DNA from: Mammaliicoccus sciuri
GTDB taxonomy: Bacteria; Bacillota; Bacilli; Staphylococcales; Staphylococcaceae
Length of the DNA: 64,000 bases
Reading direction: 5' to 3'
NCBI RefSeq assembly: GCF_025561425.1
Contig: NZ_CP094824.1
Location: forward strand, 992,001 to 1,056,000
The notes under the pieces were generated by a model. The model made no database searches, was not told where the DNA came from, and worked only from the letters and a program-made list of their open reading frames with translations. The position numbers were made by a program, and so were the translations under genes. This document shows, in pieces, positions 31,926 to 44,874 of the stretch (positions within the stretch are counted from its first letter, which is position 1; the number at the start of each line of letters is the position of its first letter).

Positions 31926-32078
31926 ACAGTTAGGTAGCGTTATTGCATGTTGATTTCATCGTCTTTTTAACAGTTAGGAATGCCTAACTGTTAAAAAAAT
32001 AGTTGTAAAATACACTTAAGAAATGAAATATTTGAGTTAAGAATGAATCAACAAAAATTCCTATCTCACTGATATACT
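31926..32078 (+). promoter_or_regulatory. AgrA-box array and AgrA-dependent promoter away from agr
   Basis: Boxes matching ACAGTTARG lie at 31926-31934 (exact), 31970-31978 (exact), 32012-32020 (ACACTTAAG, 8/9) and 32033-32041 (TGAGTTAAG, 7/9), all on the plus strand and 44, 42 and 21 bp apart. The box at 31970 is also half of a perfect hairpin palindrome with CCTAACTGT at 31983. The last pair has the 21-bp spacing of agr P2 and P3. TATACT at 32073-32078 begins 40 bp after the last box begins; the same distance is 40 bp in P2 and 38 bp in P3. No good -35 is seen, as expected for an activated promoter. Confidence 0.7.
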
Positions 32079-32084
32079 TTAGTC

Positions 32085-32334
32085 ATAGATAACACAACAC
32101 GAAGCACAATCCATTCAATTCCTCAAAACTATTTCGTATATGTTTTTTTCATGATTGTAAATGACTTTGTGTAGAACGTGTTTTGATAGTTATCTGTAAT
32201 TGTAACGTTGAAATGGATCATAAAATGATTCAAGATATTTTTATAAAGTTTCCCGGTTTTATAAAAATACATGTTTCCTTAATTAATAACCCTTCCCCGA
32301 AAAGCGCTCGTTAATTCCCGGACGAGCGCTTTTC
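32085..32334 (+). ncRNA. Candidate AgrA-activated regulatory RNA with two UUCCCGG loops
   Basis: The predicted transcript starts about 7 bases after the -10 box and ends at a terminator, giving roughly 250 nt. No reading frame in it has a ribosome site. Two strong hairpins occur. The first has a 12-bp stem, 32236-32247 with 32258-32269, and loop GUUUCCCGGU. The terminator hairpin has a 13-bp stem, 32299-32311 with 32322-32334, and loop UAAUUCCCGG. A single-stranded CCUUCCCC (32291-32298) lies just before the second. C-rich loops of this kind are what RNAIII uses to block ribosome binding sites. The RNA class and direction are inferred. Confidence 0.6.
32299..32334. terminator. Terminator of the candidate AgrA-controlled RNA
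   Basis: A perfect 13-bp stem, GAAAAGCGCTCGT with ACGAGCGCTTTTC, and a 10-base loop containing UUCCCGG. The T run forms part of the stem. Confidence 0.75.
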
Positions 32335-40594: not shown

Positions 40595-41311
40595 TTATAT
40601 TTTTTTAATATTTCGTACAGATGCATAGCAATGCTCACCATTACTAAAGTATACTGCACGATCTTTCGTGTTAATAGTATCAACGTTATTACGATTAATG
40701 ACATAACTGTTATGACATCGGAAGAAGCGGTCATCTAAATTAGATAAATCTTTTAAACTGCCATAAAACTCAATTTGTCTATTATCTAGATGAGCAATTA
40801 GTCGATGTGATTTTGATGATGACTCAAAGAACATAACGTCATCATATTGAACATATACAGAATTGCTACCTCTCGTTAATTCTATCTTTTCAACGTTTGT
40901 ATTTTTAGAAAGCATACCTAATCTTATGTATGCAGTGTCTAAACAATCTAACACTCTTGTCTTCAGTTGATCTGGATCATCTTTAAAAATAAAATCCATC
41001 GCAGCAACTTTATAAACAAATGTTAAATAAGTCAGTTCACTGTGGCTTGTGACAAAAACAATATTACCAATAGGGTCATACTTACGTATTTCACTTGCTA
41101 AAGTAATACCATTAATATCAGCATCTAATTGAATATCTAAAAAGTAACAGCCTATATCATTTGAAGATTTAACGTGCTCCAACAATTCATACGGATCACG
41201 TGTTGCTAGTTCAATAGACATTTCTTTTTCTTCAATCATAATATAATTATTGATAATCGTCTGCATGCGCTCTAATTGTTTCGGGTCATCTTCACAAATG
41301 ATGATTTTCAT
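40595..41311 (-). CDS. agrA: Quorum-sensing response regulator AgrA
   Basis: A 238-residue regulator. The receiver domain begins MKIIICEDDPKQLERM with the phospho-acceptor Asp in GCYFLDIQLDADI (about residue 59). The C-terminal LytTR DNA-binding domain has FFESSSKSHRLIAHLDNRQIEFYGSLKDL and FFRCHNSYVINRNNVDTI. It should bind the ACAGTTARG boxes at P2, P3 and the array near 32 kb. It overlaps agrC by four bases and is the last gene of the operon. Confidence 0.97.
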   Translation of the reverse strand: MKIIICEDDPKQLERMQTIINNYIMIEEKEMSIELATRDPYELLEHVKSSNDIGCYFLDIQLDADINGITLASEIRKYDPIGNIVFVTSHSELTYLTFVYKVAAMDFIFKDDPDQLKTRVLDCLDTAYIRLGMLSKNTNVEKIELTRGSNSVYVQYDDVMFFESSSKSHRLIAHLDNRQIEFYGSLKDLSNLDDRFFRCHNSYVINRNNVDTINTKDRAVYFSNGEHCYASVRNIKKI

Positions 41312-42624
41312 TGAATCACTTCCTCATTGCTATCATTTAAAATTTCAAGCTTTTGAATAAAGTATTGATTATTAATAAAAGTATCTAAGAAAACATGGTC
41401 TGTCTTCTCAGTAATTTCTTTCAACGTAGTTAACCCAATACCACGCTTACGACCTTTAGTAGAATAATGATTTTCAAATAGTTTATGTACCTTAGGCGTA
41501 TCTTTAGAACATTTATTCATGAATACAAGTAAAATCGATTCCTTATTTTTAATAAATGCAATTTGAATCGTTGGATTATCAACAAACTCTGAAGCCTCAA
41601 TTGCATTATCCATAATGATGCCAATACATCTACTTAATTCAACAATGTTCATATTTATATGATCAATCTGTTCAGTAATCTCAACACTAATATTGATATT
41701 CTGTTCCTGAGATTGAATAATTTTCGTCGTTAATAAACCCTTAATTTCTCTAACATGTAAATTTTGAAGACCATTAATTTTTATCGCATTTAATTTCATA
41801 TCATCATGAAGATGTGCAATATTTTGGTCAAAGTATGTTCTCAAACCATCCATATCATCTTCTCTAATATATTCAGATAACGTCGCTAAAATATTTACAT
41901 AATCATGACGAAACTTACGCATCTCATTATTAATCTGCTCAATCTGCAACGTATACTTATAATACTGATTGATTTCTTTCTTCGTACGCTGCAAAGCCAT
42001 CTCTCTAATAACCGTGAAAGAAATTAAAATAATAAAAATAGCAGCAACACATACATAAATCACATAAAATAAAGTTTGGAATTCAAACTCTTTTTCAGTA
42101 TTGTAAGACTTTGGCATGTATACATAGAACACCATGAAGGATATAGCTAAGAAAGCAGCTATCAATAATAAATAAACTCTATTATTATACAAATAACTGA
42201 TCTTTAATCGATTCATTAACCGTCTTATTAAAAATGCTATTATGATTGTGAATGTACTGTGAAACATCATATAATACAAGAAAAATTGTGGTACATTATT
42301 TAAGTTATCAATTAAATATTTGGTGATAAAAACAGACATATAATCTGAAACTACTGAGATTAATATAACAATAAGTGTGTTTATAATGCCTAGTAATCTA
42401 AATTTTTTATAGAAGAAAATAAAATAGAATAGGCATACATATACTATTGCACTCATTCCAAATATATAATAAAAAGCAAGAGAAGGGATCATGTATCCCG
42501 TTGAAAGAATAACATAATCCCTTTTGCTATAACGATAATTCTGAGTTATAGCTAATAAAATCGTAAATAATAAAATTTGTAATATGCCAAATGGTAAAGA
42601 TTCTATATTTGTAAATGGTTCCAT
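41308..42624 (-). CDS. agrC: Quorum-sensing sensor histidine kinase AgrC
   Basis: A 438-residue receptor kinase for the autoinducing peptide. Six or so transmembrane helices fill residues 1-205. The phospho-acceptor His lies in MRKFRHDYVNILATL (about 240), followed by the ATPase domain with N-box GIIMDNAIEASE and G-box GRKRGIGLTTLKEI. It begins 27 bp after agrD. The N-terminal sensor part varies between specificity groups, so the peptide recognised is expected to match the AgrD here. Confidence 0.96.
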   Translation of the reverse strand: MEPFTNIESLPFGILQILLFTILLAITQNYRYSKRDYVILSTGYMIPSLAFYYIFGMSAIVYVCLFYFIFFYKKFRLLGIINTLIVILISVVSDYMSVFITKYLIDNLNNVPQFFLYYMMFHSTFTIIIAFLIRRLMNRLKISYLYNNRVYLLLIAAFLAISFMVFYVYMPKSYNTEKEFEFQTLFYVIYVCVAAIFIILISFTVIREMALQRTKKEINQYYKYTLQIEQINNEMRKFRHDYVNILATLSEYIREDDMDGLRTYFDQNIAHLHDDMKLNAIKINGLQNLHVREIKGLLTTKIIQSQEQNINISVEITEQIDHINMNIVELSRCIGIIMDNAIEASEFVDNPTIQIAFIKNKESILLVFMNKCSKDTPKVHKLFENHYSTKGRKRGIGLTTLKEITEKTDHVFLDTFINNQYFIQKLEILNDSNEEVIQ

Positions 42625-42651
42625 ATACCCTTACACTTCCCTAAAACAATC

Positions 42652-42792
42652 TTATTGTTTTTCTTTTAATAATTCTGCAGGAACTTCTGTTTCATCTAAA
42701 AATGCCATACAACCTCTAATTACAGCTTTTTCACCGATTGCTGAAAGGATATTTGATACTGATTTTGAAAATAGGCTAGATAATAAATTCAT
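42652..42792 (-). CDS. agrD: Autoinducing peptide precursor AgrD
   Basis: A 46-residue precursor too short for routine ORF calling. It has an N-terminal amphipathic membrane helix (MNLLSSLFSKSVSNIL...), then KAVIRG-CMAFL, followed by the conserved charged tail DETEVPAELLKEKQ where AgrB cuts. The ring should be a five-residue thiolactone, Cys28-Met-Ala-Phe-Leu32, with an exocyclic tail such as VIRG. The ATG overlaps the agrB stop (ATGA), the standard arrangement. The ring sequence differs from the four S. aureus groups. Confidence 0.93.
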   Translation of the reverse strand: MNLLSSLFSKSVSNILSAIGEKAVIRGCMAFLDETEVPAELLKEKQ

Positions 42793-43364
42793 GATAATGT
42801 TTCCTCCTCTTTGTAAAATATAGGTAATAGTGATACTGCTTCAAAGATTAATCCTAAACATACTAATTGTTGATAGGGTTCTTTAAGGAATAAGGTTAAT
42901 ACTATCAAAATTGTTGCTGCTAGGATTGATCTTAGTTTAAGTCCTTTTTTCCATTTGCCTAATATTGGGTGTTTCTTTGTTTGCATTGGTGCGTACTTTA
43001 TAATGATAAGATATCCGACTAACGCTATGGATAAGAATGGCCAATAGGGCATGTTGGTATTTATGATTATAAGTGGTGCAACGACAAACATAATTAGGCT
43101 TTGTATCGTACATAGAAATGTGGACTTAACGTGCGCGCCAAACGCGAAATATCGAATGGCAAAATAACTAAGATGTACAATAAGTGTGTATAAAAATATA
43201 TGGCATAGAAGGGCAGCGCCGTATATAACTATGGTCTTCATGATATTCCCTACAAATACTTCTAGTCCATACTTTACCTTTAAATAACTAACATGATCTA
43301 GATTATTTGAATTTTGAAGACTTGCAGCAATTTTATCTATTTGTGTTTGGACAGGTTGATACAT
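42789..43364 (-). CDS. agrB: Membrane peptidase AgrB
   Basis: A 191-residue integral membrane cysteine peptidase that cuts and cyclises AgrD. The catalytic His and Cys are in RYFAFGAHVKSTFLC, the family motif, followed by four or more helices and a basic stretch (PMQTKKHPILGKWKK). Ribosome site GGAGGGG; first gene of the P2 transcript, overlapping agrD by four bases. Confidence 0.96.
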   Translation of the reverse strand: MYQPVQTQIDKIAASLQNSNNLDHVSYLKVKYGLEVFVGNIMKTIVIYGAALLCHIFLYTLIVHLSYFAIRYFAFGAHVKSTFLCTIQSLIMFVVAPLIIINTNMPYWPFLSIALVGYLIIIKYAPMQTKKHPILGKWKKGLKLRSILAATILIVLTLFLKEPYQQLVCLGLIFEAVSLLPIFYKEEETLS

Positions 43365-43384: not shown

Positions 43385-43451
43385 ATTATAGAACAAATTG
43401 ATTTACATTTTACTTCTTTTGCCTAACTGTATTATTTCAATGCCTAACTGT
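43385..43451 (-). promoter_or_regulatory. agr P2 promoter with two exact AgrA boxes
   Basis: On the minus strand ACAGTTAGG occurs at 43451-43443 and again at 43430-43422, exactly 21 bp apart. TATAAT (43390-43385) begins 40 bp after the second box begins. No strong -35 box. Drives agrBDCA. Confidence 0.92.
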
Positions 43452-43491: not shown

Positions 43492-43556
43492 GCAGTTAAG
43501 AACTTAAATTAACGACTTAGGGAAAATATAAAATTCTATTATTGAAATACTATAAT
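43492..43556 (+). promoter_or_regulatory. agr P3 promoter
   Basis: GCAGTTAAG (43492-43500) and CGACTTAGG (43513-43521) are weaker AgrA boxes, again 21 bp apart. TATAAT (43551-43556) begins 38 bp after the second box begins. Drives RNAIII/hld. Weaker boxes than P2 agree with P3 firing after P2 in S. aureus. Confidence 0.85.
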
Positions 43557-43604
43557 ATATTTAATGAATATATAATTCTTTATGATAAATTAAAAAGTTT
43601 AAAT

Positions 43605-43623
43605 ATAAAGGAGGCTCCTTTAT
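43605..43623 (+). promoter_or_regulatory. Hairpin hiding the hld ribosome site and start codon
   Basis: ATAAAGGAG (43605-43613) and CTCCTTTAT (43615-43623) are perfect complements around a single G. The AAGGAGG ribosome site is in the 5' arm and loop, and the first two bases of the hld ATG (43622-43624) are in the 3' arm. The 3' arm copies the anti-Shine-Dalgarno end of 16S rRNA. Confidence 0.7.
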
Positions 43624-43699
43624 GGCAGGCGATATCGTTAATGCTATTTGTAGTATTTTTAATTGGTTAGTGGAACTTTTTTATGGGTTGTTTACTTAA
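43622..43699 (+). CDS. hld: Delta-haemolysin-like peptide
   Basis: A 25-residue peptide, too short for routine ORF calling: MAGDIVNAIC then SIFNWLVELFYGLFT. Like S. aureus delta-toxin it begins MA-DI and forms one amphipathic helix with a central Trp. It differs in lacking the C-terminal lysines and in having a cysteine at position 10, so it is acidic to neutral. It lies just after P3 on the RNAIII transcript, the position of hld in all staphylococci. It would be secreted without a signal peptide, probably by the Pmt exporter. Confidence 0.88.
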   Translation: MAGDIVNAICSIFNWLVELFYGLFT

Positions 43700-43839
43700 A
43701 TATCTGCTGTGTTTGATACGTGGTTATTCATATAATAAATATTTTAACGTGTACCATTTGGTATGCGTTTTTATTATAGTTATTGAGCGTTTTCATGTAG
43801 AATGATATTAAAGAACAAATTAGGGAGGAATTTAATTTT

Positions 43840-44874
43840 ATGAAAACGAAAGGTTATATTGGTAGTTATACGAAGAAAGAAGGAAAAGGGATTTATCGTT
43901 TTGATGTTGATGAGAATGATCAAACAATCGAGAAAGTTGAAGTTGGTTATGAAGTTGAAGCATCTACATATTTAACACAACATGGTCAATTTTTATATGC
44001 TATTAAAAGAGATGGCGATGATTGCGGTGTTGCAAGTTTTAATATTAATGAAGATGGTAGCTTAACATATATAAATGATTGCTTAGCTTCACAAGAAGGA
44101 ACGGGTTGTCATATTTCAGTTTCTGAAGACGGTCAATATTTATTTGAAGCTGTTTATGGAAGTGGTTATGTAAGACTTTATAAATTAAACGCTGAAAATG
44201 GGGAAATTATTGAATTAATAGATGTGTATAAAGGTGAAGGTCATGGACCAAATGAAGCAAGACAAGAAGGTAGCCATATACACTTTGCAGAACAGACACC
44301 AGATTTAGATTATATCGTTACAGTTGATTTAGGTGCAGATGTGATCAGAACATTTAAATTCTCTGATGAAGGATTGGAATTATATGAAACGTTAGAAGTT
44401 CAAGCTGGAAGCGGTCCAAGACATATTGCGTTTCATCCAAGTGGTGTTTACGCATACTTAGTAAATGAACTGAGCAATACGATTCAAGTGTTGTCATATA
44501 AAAATGGAGTGTTTGCGACAATCAGTCCAGCACTATTAACGATTCCAGAAGACTTTGATTTAAATTCACAAGTTGCTGCTGTTAGATTAAGTCATGATGG
44601 ACAGTTTATTTATGTTTCTAACAGAGGACATAATAGTATAGCTGTTTATAAAATATTAGGTGATGGCGCAAATGTTGAATTAGTTGAAATTGTAACGAGT
44701 GGTGGAACATGGCCAAGAGATTTAAATATCACACCAAGTGATTCATTTATAGTTGTTGCTCATGAACATTCATATAATTTAGTATTATTTAGTCGAAATA
44801 AAGAAACTGGTAAGCTGACAGAAATAGAGAATGAACAAAAAGCTGCAGAAGGCGTTTGTGTTCAATTTATATAA
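43840..44874 (+). CDS. pgl: Beta-propeller lactonase (6-phosphogluconolactonase family)
   Basis: A 344-residue seven-bladed propeller of the YkgB/lactonase_7-bladed family. Recurrent blade motifs are GSYTKKEGKGIYRFDVDE, GTGCHISVSEDGQYLF, GSGPRHIAFHPSGVYAYLVNEL, RLSHDGQFIYVSNRGHNSIAVYK and GTWPRDLNITPSDSFIVVAHEHS. It would hydrolyse 6-phosphogluconolactone in the pentose phosphate pathway, though family members also act on other lactones. Ribosome site AGGGAGG. Possibly cotranscribed with the nitrilase gene 16 bp on. Confidence 0.8.
   Translation: MKTKGYIGSYTKKEGKGIYRFDVDENDQTIEKVEVGYEVEASTYLTQHGQFLYAIKRDGDDCGVASFNINEDGSLTYINDCLASQEGTGCHISVSEDGQYLFEAVYGSGYVRLYKLNAENGEIIELIDVYKGEGHGPNEARQEGSHIHFAEQTPDLDYIVTVDLGADVIRTFKFSDEGLELYETLEVQAGSGPRHIAFHPSGVYAYLVNELSNTIQVLSYKNGVFATISPALLTIPEDFDLNSQVAAVRLSHDGQFIYVSNRGHNSIAVYKILGDGANVELVEIVTSGGTWPRDLNITPSDSFIVVAHEHSYNLVLFSRNKETGKLTEIENEQKAAEGVCVQFI

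Follow-up and report, generated by a model that had tools for sequence, protein, structure and literature searches.

The subject of this analysis is an intergenic element in a 64,000-nt stretch of the 2.92-Mb Mammaliicoccus sciuri genome (G000:C1:992001-1056000, hereafter the window, within which all positions are counted). The element, an AgrA-type promoter followed by a predicted RNA of about 250 nt, is likely to be an agr effector RNA gene that is unlinked from the agr P3 promoter, in a genus in which RNAIII is not detected. RNAIII, the usual effector RNA of quorum sensing, is the textbook case of an RNA that is both a toxin message and a regulator, the two being fused in most staphylococci. 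In the reading that we favor, to which we assign a probability of roughly 0.7, Mammaliicoccus would possess a stand-alone, AgrA-driven noncoding RNA that blocks or destabilizes messages, with the two jobs of RNAIII residing on two genes about 11 kb apart.

Comparisons were made across 108 Staphylococcaceae genomes, comprising eight from Mammaliicoccus (g1), nine from g2, six from g3, one from g4 and 84 from g5, a genus that we take to be Staphylococcus from its RNAIII and psm genes. Where labels are needed, G000 is the genome of the window, G001 M. fleurettii, G002 M. lentus, G003 M. sciuri and G006 M. stepanovicii.

Anatomy of an AgrA-type promoter

The initial annotation had described four AgrA-type boxes in this intergenic stretch, with ACAGTTAGG at 31926 and 31970, ACACTTAAG at 32012 and TGAGTTAAG at 32033 (intervals of 44, 42 and 21 bp), followed 40 bp past the last box by a TATACT hexamer at 32073, and all of these positions are right. 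As parts of a single promoter, the boxes at 31970, 32012 and 32033 are retained, whereas the one at 31926 is present in only two of the eight species (G000 and G003) and is therefore placed outside the conserved promoter. The last box is weak, matching seven of the nine letters of ACAGTTAAG. A further box, missed earlier, lies on the opposite strand at 31983-31991 and turns the surrounding sequence into a palindrome with perfect 15-bp arms (ACAGTTAGG-N4-CCTAACTGT), with the direct repeat 42 bp downstream. Conservation of the boxes and loops in relatives had been set beforehand as a test of the proposal, and the palindrome, the repeat, the −10 box and both hairpin loops discussed below are found in all eight species, with promoter spacing unchanged (the −10 box of three species was placed from the alignment); the first box is the exception. 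In M. stepanovicii, the two arms of the palindrome are altered alike (ACAGATAGG...CCTATCTGT), and the symmetry of this change suggests that the palindrome is bound as a unit.

These boxes are more frequent than chance would predict. The window contains seven copies of ACASTTARG where 1.9 would be expected, a count reached by none of 100 shuffles, and two copies of the spaced pair ACASTTARG-N15-GTTARG (0.00 expected), one at the RNA locus and one at agr P2. The same two sites are the sole exact copies in the entire genome, which has two more with one mismatch and none of the reversed control pattern. Across the eight Mammaliicoccus genomes there are 18 exact copies, eight at the RNA locus, six at P2 and four elsewhere, the P2 pair being exact in six species and carrying one mismatch in two. 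When up to one mismatch is allowed, the pair is found at 41 places, compared with nine for the reversed pattern.

Published work defines AgrA sites as two 9-bp sites that are 12 bp apart and centered near −60, in promoters with suboptimal −35/−10 spacing (PMC10482373, PMC4227749). The RNA locus displays this spacing, its repeat is centered at about −58, and a sigma-70 scan finds no −35/−10 pair at the promoter. The gap of 31 nt between repeat and −10 box equals that of agr P2, in keeping with the P2 geometry originally proposed, and recurs at the Staphylococcus loci L018, L022, L023 and L029. When the intergenic DNA was compared with the 108 family genomes, 19 gave matches, namely the eight of Mammaliicoccus and 11 of g5. 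Four g5 matches (L023, L029, L026 and L030) precede small peptide frames, as read by eye, which we take from their first residues to be psm or hld genes; L024 and L025 matched other portions of the query. This similarity to psm-like upstream regions, together with the shared gap, independently supports the AgrA-type reading. The psm-type promoters L018, L022, L023 and L029 likewise have AgrA-type boxes arranged as an inverted repeat, located roughly 40 bp upstream of the direct repeat; this inverted repeat is near-perfect at one L018 site, with the same 42-bp distance to the direct repeat, and imperfect at the other three loci. By its anatomy, the promoter in front of the RNA is of the AgrA type, and from this we infer AgrA dependence.

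The palindrome and the repeat also lie upstream of the divergent transporter gene in the window, which they might serve instead, the remainder of the stretch being untranscribed. However, the left neighbor is gntP instead of the transporter gene in three of the eight species, and the promoter and RNA remain there; the boxes, their spacing and the −10 box are oriented toward the RNA; and base pairs of the predicted RNA are altered on both sides. This explanation accordingly has a very slight probability, the lowest among those considered here. On the other flank, a thioredoxin-like gene accompanies the RNA locus in all eight species.

A conserved and probably noncoding RNA

The predicted AgrA-driven RNA belongs to a stretch that is 95% alike in M. 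sciuri NCTC 12103 (G003), the nearest genome, and that a similarity search finds in eight of eight Mammaliicoccus genomes. The model of the RNA (R1) matches all eight Mammaliicoccus genomes and none of the 100 other Staphylococcaceae at E<=0.01. Outside the genus, one genome reaches E 0.078 and the other 99 yield nothing up to 0.1, although weak relatives could be lost because the search used strict filters and scored 19 candidates per genome. A 26-base segment of the 3′ hairpin, sought as an exact match in a collection that represents 84,980 species by one genome apiece (the window's own genome possibly excluded), returned four matches, all of them in Mammaliicoccus (fleurettii, sciuri, lentus and stepanovicii). 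In M. lentus, the RNA model also gives two additional short matches, confined to the 3′ hairpin. In the same species, a weak Rfam match to the Staphylococcus small RNA S35 lies next to the RNA (L006 1996-2207, minus strand; 31.3 bits against a gathering cut-off of 69, E 4e-4).

The predicted fold begins with a closed 5′ domain, which is followed by a small hairpin, the hairpin bearing the loop UUUCCCGG, a C-rich linker that is open and, finally, the hairpin bearing the loop UAAUUCCCGG (Table 1). The two long perfect hairpins that had been described are present at 32236-32269 and 32299-32334, with arms of 12 and 13 bp, respectively. The fold energy of the window sequence corresponds to z values of −4.4 and −4.8, and the most distant species folds alike when folded alone (z −5.9). 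In the eight-species alignment of 32085-32334, mean column identity is 95%, and the last 64 columns, which contain the linker CCCUUCCCC and the loop UUCCCGG, both C-rich, are all invariant, as is the UUUCCCGG loop upstream of this block. With a conserved 3′ domain that holds C-rich loops, the RNA has a feature expected of an RNAIII-like effector. Three of the 74 predicted pairs are altered on both sides, two of them in the first-loop hairpin of M. fleurettii, and 96.5% of cells are paired, as opposed to 34-53% when the partners are slid. The terminator that had been assigned to the 3′ end is borne out in part, in that the hairpin exists but is followed by only a short U run, and a terminator scan gives it no score.

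The earlier statement that this region lacks a credible reading frame requires a similar adjustment, since a 33-codon frame at 32213-32314 covers the 3′ half of the RNA and is open in seven of the eight species. This frame, together with the psm-beta spacing of the promoter, would be compatible with a psm-type promoter that precedes a small peptide gene. Yet M. fleurettii carries an in-frame stop that results from a change in column 181, and the partner column 158 is changed as well, such that the helix is kept and the frame is broken. In addition, changes at codon positions 1, 2 and 3 number 6, 5 and 3, no ribosome site is seen by eye before the ATG, and the peptide is not psm-like. An intact frame in every species, a predominance of synonymous changes and a ribosome site, as expected of a small peptide gene, are thus not found, and we regard such a gene as highly improbable. 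The evidence speaks against coding, and the RNA locus, as judged from these alignments, is conserved within Mammaliicoccus and probably noncoding.

The agr locus, its P3 side and RNAIII

The agr operon resides in the same window, with the end of agrA 8.3 kb from the RNA, and the description of the RNA as encoded away from agr therefore has to be withdrawn. AgrA and AgrC score 471.6 bits (cut-off 400) and 523.9 bits (cut-off 500), respectively, and AgrB and AgrD are recognized by Pfam. The distance from the RNA to the AgrB match is 10.3-11.0 kb in the six species that have both on one contig; in two species they are on separate contigs. AgrB is found in 8/8 genomes of g1, 83/84 of g5, 3/9 of g2, 1/6 of g3 and 1/1 of g4.

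Opposite in direction to agrBDCA, the P3 side consists of a box, a 25-codon frame and a terminator-like hairpin, and the lactonase gene begins beyond this unit, at 43840. The 25-codon peptide has no Pfam or NCBIfam match, and since no family model recognizes it, the term “delta-toxin-like” refers to its place and to the likeness of its first residues. A small peptide frame occupies this position in all eight species, and begins with TTG in M. stepanovicii. Between the stop of this frame and the lactonase gene lie 136-143 nt in six of the seven species measured (G007 being outside the measurement) and 360 nt in M. stepanovicii. The frame is followed by a terminator-like hairpin in six of seven species, with none seen in G005, and UCCC or CCCC is absent from the P3 side in seven of eight, the one occurrence in M. 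stepanovicii lying behind the terminator-like hairpin. As read from these features, the Mammaliicoccus P3 side leaves little room for an RNAIII regulatory part.

RNAIII itself was not found in the genome of the window alone, with all 75 candidates scored, and because the control genomes were silent too, the search was widened to the 108 genomes. There, with strict filters and nine candidates scored per Mammaliicoccus genome, the Rfam model of RNAIII (RF00503) matches 82 of the 84 g5 genomes and none of the eight of Mammaliicoccus; one g2 genome has a sub-cut-off match that spans only model positions 46-196. Laxer filters, up to E 1, give no match at the eight agr loci or the eight RNA loci, with a control locus at 490.6 bits. 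Across the window, Rfam finds nothing at the gathering cut-off, and the RNA locus attracts only low scorers below it. Within g5, one genome with agr and several nearby AgrA-type repeats is without an Rfam RNAIII (L093 and G067:C143), and another (G087) has neither AgrB nor RNAIII.

The RNA model and the RNAIII model each match where the other does not, which makes the two RNAs mutually exclusive among the 108 genomes. This pattern, along with a regulator that the two RNAs likely share, would be expected if the RNA were RNAIII itself, in which case an ancestral RNAIII would have had its regulatory half displaced by about 11 kb, with divergence beyond detection by Rfam. By eye, the 3′ ends also follow a like order, a UUCC(C)UUAAU-AAUAA stretch being followed by a terminator hairpin whose loop is C-rich. 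Against this, no RNAIII match appears at the locus even up to E 10, and a profile made from 24 RNAIII 3′ ends gives it an E of 12, with at least six other places in the window scoring better, such that this route to homology was rejected; the likeness falls within AU-rich text. Descent from RNAIII is therefore an unlikely explanation. The RNA lies about 11 kb from P3, which leads to a different short unit, and it contains no hld, only the unrelated 33-codon frame; because the tests of model, place and hld all turned out this way, it is not classed as RNAIII. It is probably the Mammaliicoccus counterpart of RNAIII, similar in build and not detectably homologous.

Table 1. Positions within the window of the predicted RNA, its promoter and the agr locus
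Feature	Position	Strand	Remarks
Perfect palindrome, two head-to-head AgrA-type boxes ACAGTTAGG / CCTAACTGT	31964..31997	.	About 105 bp upstream of predicted start; kept in 8/8 species
AgrA-type direct repeat ACACTTAAG-N12-TGAGTTAAG	32012..32041	+	Center about −58; ACASTTARG-N15-GTTARG exact in 8/8 species
−10 box TATACT (TATAAT in one species)	32073..32078	+	31 nt after repeat; without good −35
Predicted RNA, about 250 nt	32085..32334	+	Start inferred from −10 box
5′ domain: one long, closed helix with a conserved base and a variable tip	32085..32197	+	31/57 tip columns invariant
Hairpin, loop UUUCCCGG, 12-bp perfect arms	32236..32269	+	Two pairs altered on both sides in M. fleurettii
Unpaired linker AUGUUUCCUUAAUUAAUAACCCUUCCCC	32271..32298	+	28/28 columns invariant
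3′ hairpin, likely terminator, loop UAAUUCCCGG, 13-bp perfect arms	32299..32334	+	36/36 columns invariant; U run short
agrBDCA	40595..43364	-	agrA 40595-41311, agrC 41308-42624, agrD 42652-42792, agrB 42789-43364
agr P2 direct repeat ACAGTTAGG-N12-ACAGTTAGG	43422..43451	-	Pattern match
agr P3 side: box, 25-codon delta-toxin-like frame (43622-43699), terminator-like hairpin	43492..43772	+	

Proposed mechanism and the search for targets

At high cell density, phosphorylated AgrA would bind the palindrome and the direct repeat and would initiate transcription of the 250-nt RNA, the promoter having no good −35 box. Its own 3′ hairpin would end the RNA, which would expose three invariant C-rich single strands, namely the loop UUUCCCGG, the linker CCCUUCCCC and the loop UUCCCGG. 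These strands could base-pair with messages at G-rich start regions and so block or destabilize them, in the manner of RNAIII in Staphylococcus, which acts by C-rich loops on message start regions (PMC2837412); the blocking of Shine-Dalgarno sequences that the initial annotation had proposed would be of this kind. The agr P3 promoter would make only a short delta-toxin-like message, the regulatory job being left to the separate RNA gene.

Among potential partners of the loops, CCGGGAA with an ATG within 20 nt occurs 176 times in the eight genomes and the reversed pattern 63 times; some of the 176 are repeated rRNA- and tRNA-like copies. In the genome of the window, 23 loop complements precede an ATG, of which six are rRNA-like, one is tRNA-like and 16 fall at 14 places. 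The conserved CCGGGAAGGAATG was considered as a target and rejected, as it is a tRNA-like gene. Such genes (L141-L147) have the anticodon loop CTTCCCG, with one to three exact CCGGGAAGGAATG copies in each of seven genomes; the loop has UUCCCGG in common with the RNA, and the anticodon reads as TCC. These may be glycine tRNAs for the cell wall. A gene that we take to be sarA-like (L162-L168) has a G-rich ribosome site, GGGGGATT, in six of the seven species read, and is not claimed here as a target.

Several observations count against the interpretation as a message-blocking RNAIII counterpart. None of the 14 places in the genome of the window, all outside the rRNA- and tRNA-like copies, nor six in relatives, shows a clear gene start. 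Two complements (CCGGGAAA; L154 and L156) lie inside genes, 34 and 58 nt after the start, the former in a frame with a good ribosome site that is presumably addB-like and the latter counted from the first start codon of a frame that is presumably hprK-like; because both sites code for protein, they are weak candidates. Pairing energies against 60 genes of the window and the SarA family (30 loci, of which 29 were scored, L161 being on an evidently wrong frame) single out nothing and are too noisy. In the fold, the covariation score is reached by five of 500 shuffles and 55 of the 74 pairs never vary; a slide by +3 likewise produces three pairs altered on both sides, for which reason covariation is supportive rather than strong. 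C-rich stretches apart, the sequence of the RNA does not resemble that of RNAIII. Finally, deletion of S. lugdunensis RNAIII is reported to have had no visible effect (PMC8826819), and an agr RNA thus need not have a strong role.

An AgrA-driven RNA could also act otherwise, either by sequestering another RNA as a sponge or through binding to a protein. The want of a clear start-site target in the part examined would fit such a role, as would the recurrence of UUCCCGG in the tRNA-like anticodon loop of the same genomes. The invariant, unpaired C-rich strands nonetheless resemble those of RNAIII and of other S. aureus RNAs with unpaired UCCC (PMC2837412), and we consider these modes of action improbable compared with pairing to messages.

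One RNA or two genes

Because the P3 side holds a toxin-like frame and little room beyond it, and because RNAIII is found in none of the eight Mammaliicoccus genomes even though agrB is found in all of them, this genus appears to encode the toxin message and the regulatory RNA in two genes. We give about an even chance to the proposition that what is RNAIII elsewhere corresponds in Mammaliicoccus to a P3 message that encodes only the toxin and a regulatory RNA with a gene of its own, driven by AgrA. If so, Staphylococcus would owe its dual-function RNAIII to a fusion of two such genes, or else that RNAIII would be the state that Mammaliicoccus split. We lean toward fusion because one g2 genome, G010 (L092), has a toxin-like frame beside agrB with a terminator-like hairpin directly after it, as judged by eye in an assembly that is 4% contaminated. 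From this one genome comes a hint that the older state may have had a short P3 message. A genus with agr, no detectable RNAIII and a separate conserved RNA under an AgrA-type switch makes it possible to ask about the order in which the two jobs arose, the requirements of the regulatory part and the range of agr control in Mammaliicoccus.

Other AgrA-type repeats

Additional repeats of the AgrA type are scattered through the Mammaliicoccus genomes. On the opposite strand at G000:C1:1319602 (L057 1500-1700), a repeat with one mismatch and a further box lies about 100-150 bp before a region that reads as a V8-type secreted protease, in which the start frame and the protease frame are discontinuous; M. 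sciuri has a similar repeat at G003:C36:255478. Exact repeats present in single species are located at G001:C198:54096, G001:C226:2, G004:C1:1845357 and G006:C11:29028. The near-match at G000:866741 lies inside a gene and is therefore attributed to chance.

Comparison with known systems

The literature searched, consulted in part and with subscription journals mostly outside it, includes PMC5099252, PMC10482373, PMC10049693, PMC7913919, PMC8826819 and PMC5343137. Within that scope, it contains no agr effector RNA in Mammaliicoccus, which is weak evidence of absence, and no instance of a toxin-like frame at P3 with the RNA elsewhere.

Among the small RNAs of S. aureus, the Rsa RNAs share unpaired UCCC with the Mammaliicoccus RNA (PMC2837412), and ArtR is likewise under AgrA but is repressed by it (PMC9266662). 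The Mammaliicoccus RNA differs from either in having no Rfam match.

The promoter resembles those of the psm-beta genes of Staphylococcus (the gene name being our own reading), which share the inverted repeat, the direct repeat and a −10 box at a 31-nt gap. At L023 and L029, however, these elements precede a peptide frame rather than an RNA, and the inverted repeat is imperfect. A PSM-beta search gave no match in the eight Mammaliicoccus genomes, with its controls likewise silent.

The RNA resembles RNAIII (RF00503) in its proximity to agr, its AgrA-type promoter, its C-rich 3′ part and its terminator hairpin with a C-rich loop. In contrast to RNAIII, it is half as long, has no detectable sequence match to it and no delta-toxin-like frame, is situated about 11 kb from P3, and has a psm-beta-type promoter with a palindrome. 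That toxin and regulator are separable has precedent in the RNAIII of S. lugdunensis and S. saprophyticus, which lack hld, and the S. lugdunensis RNA is reported still to regulate in trans (PMC8826819). These RNAs are thus regulatory RNAs without a toxin frame, as is the one proposed here. The difference lies in the arrangement: in those species the RNA is at P3, whereas in Mammaliicoccus P3 has the toxin-like frame and the RNA is encoded elsewhere.
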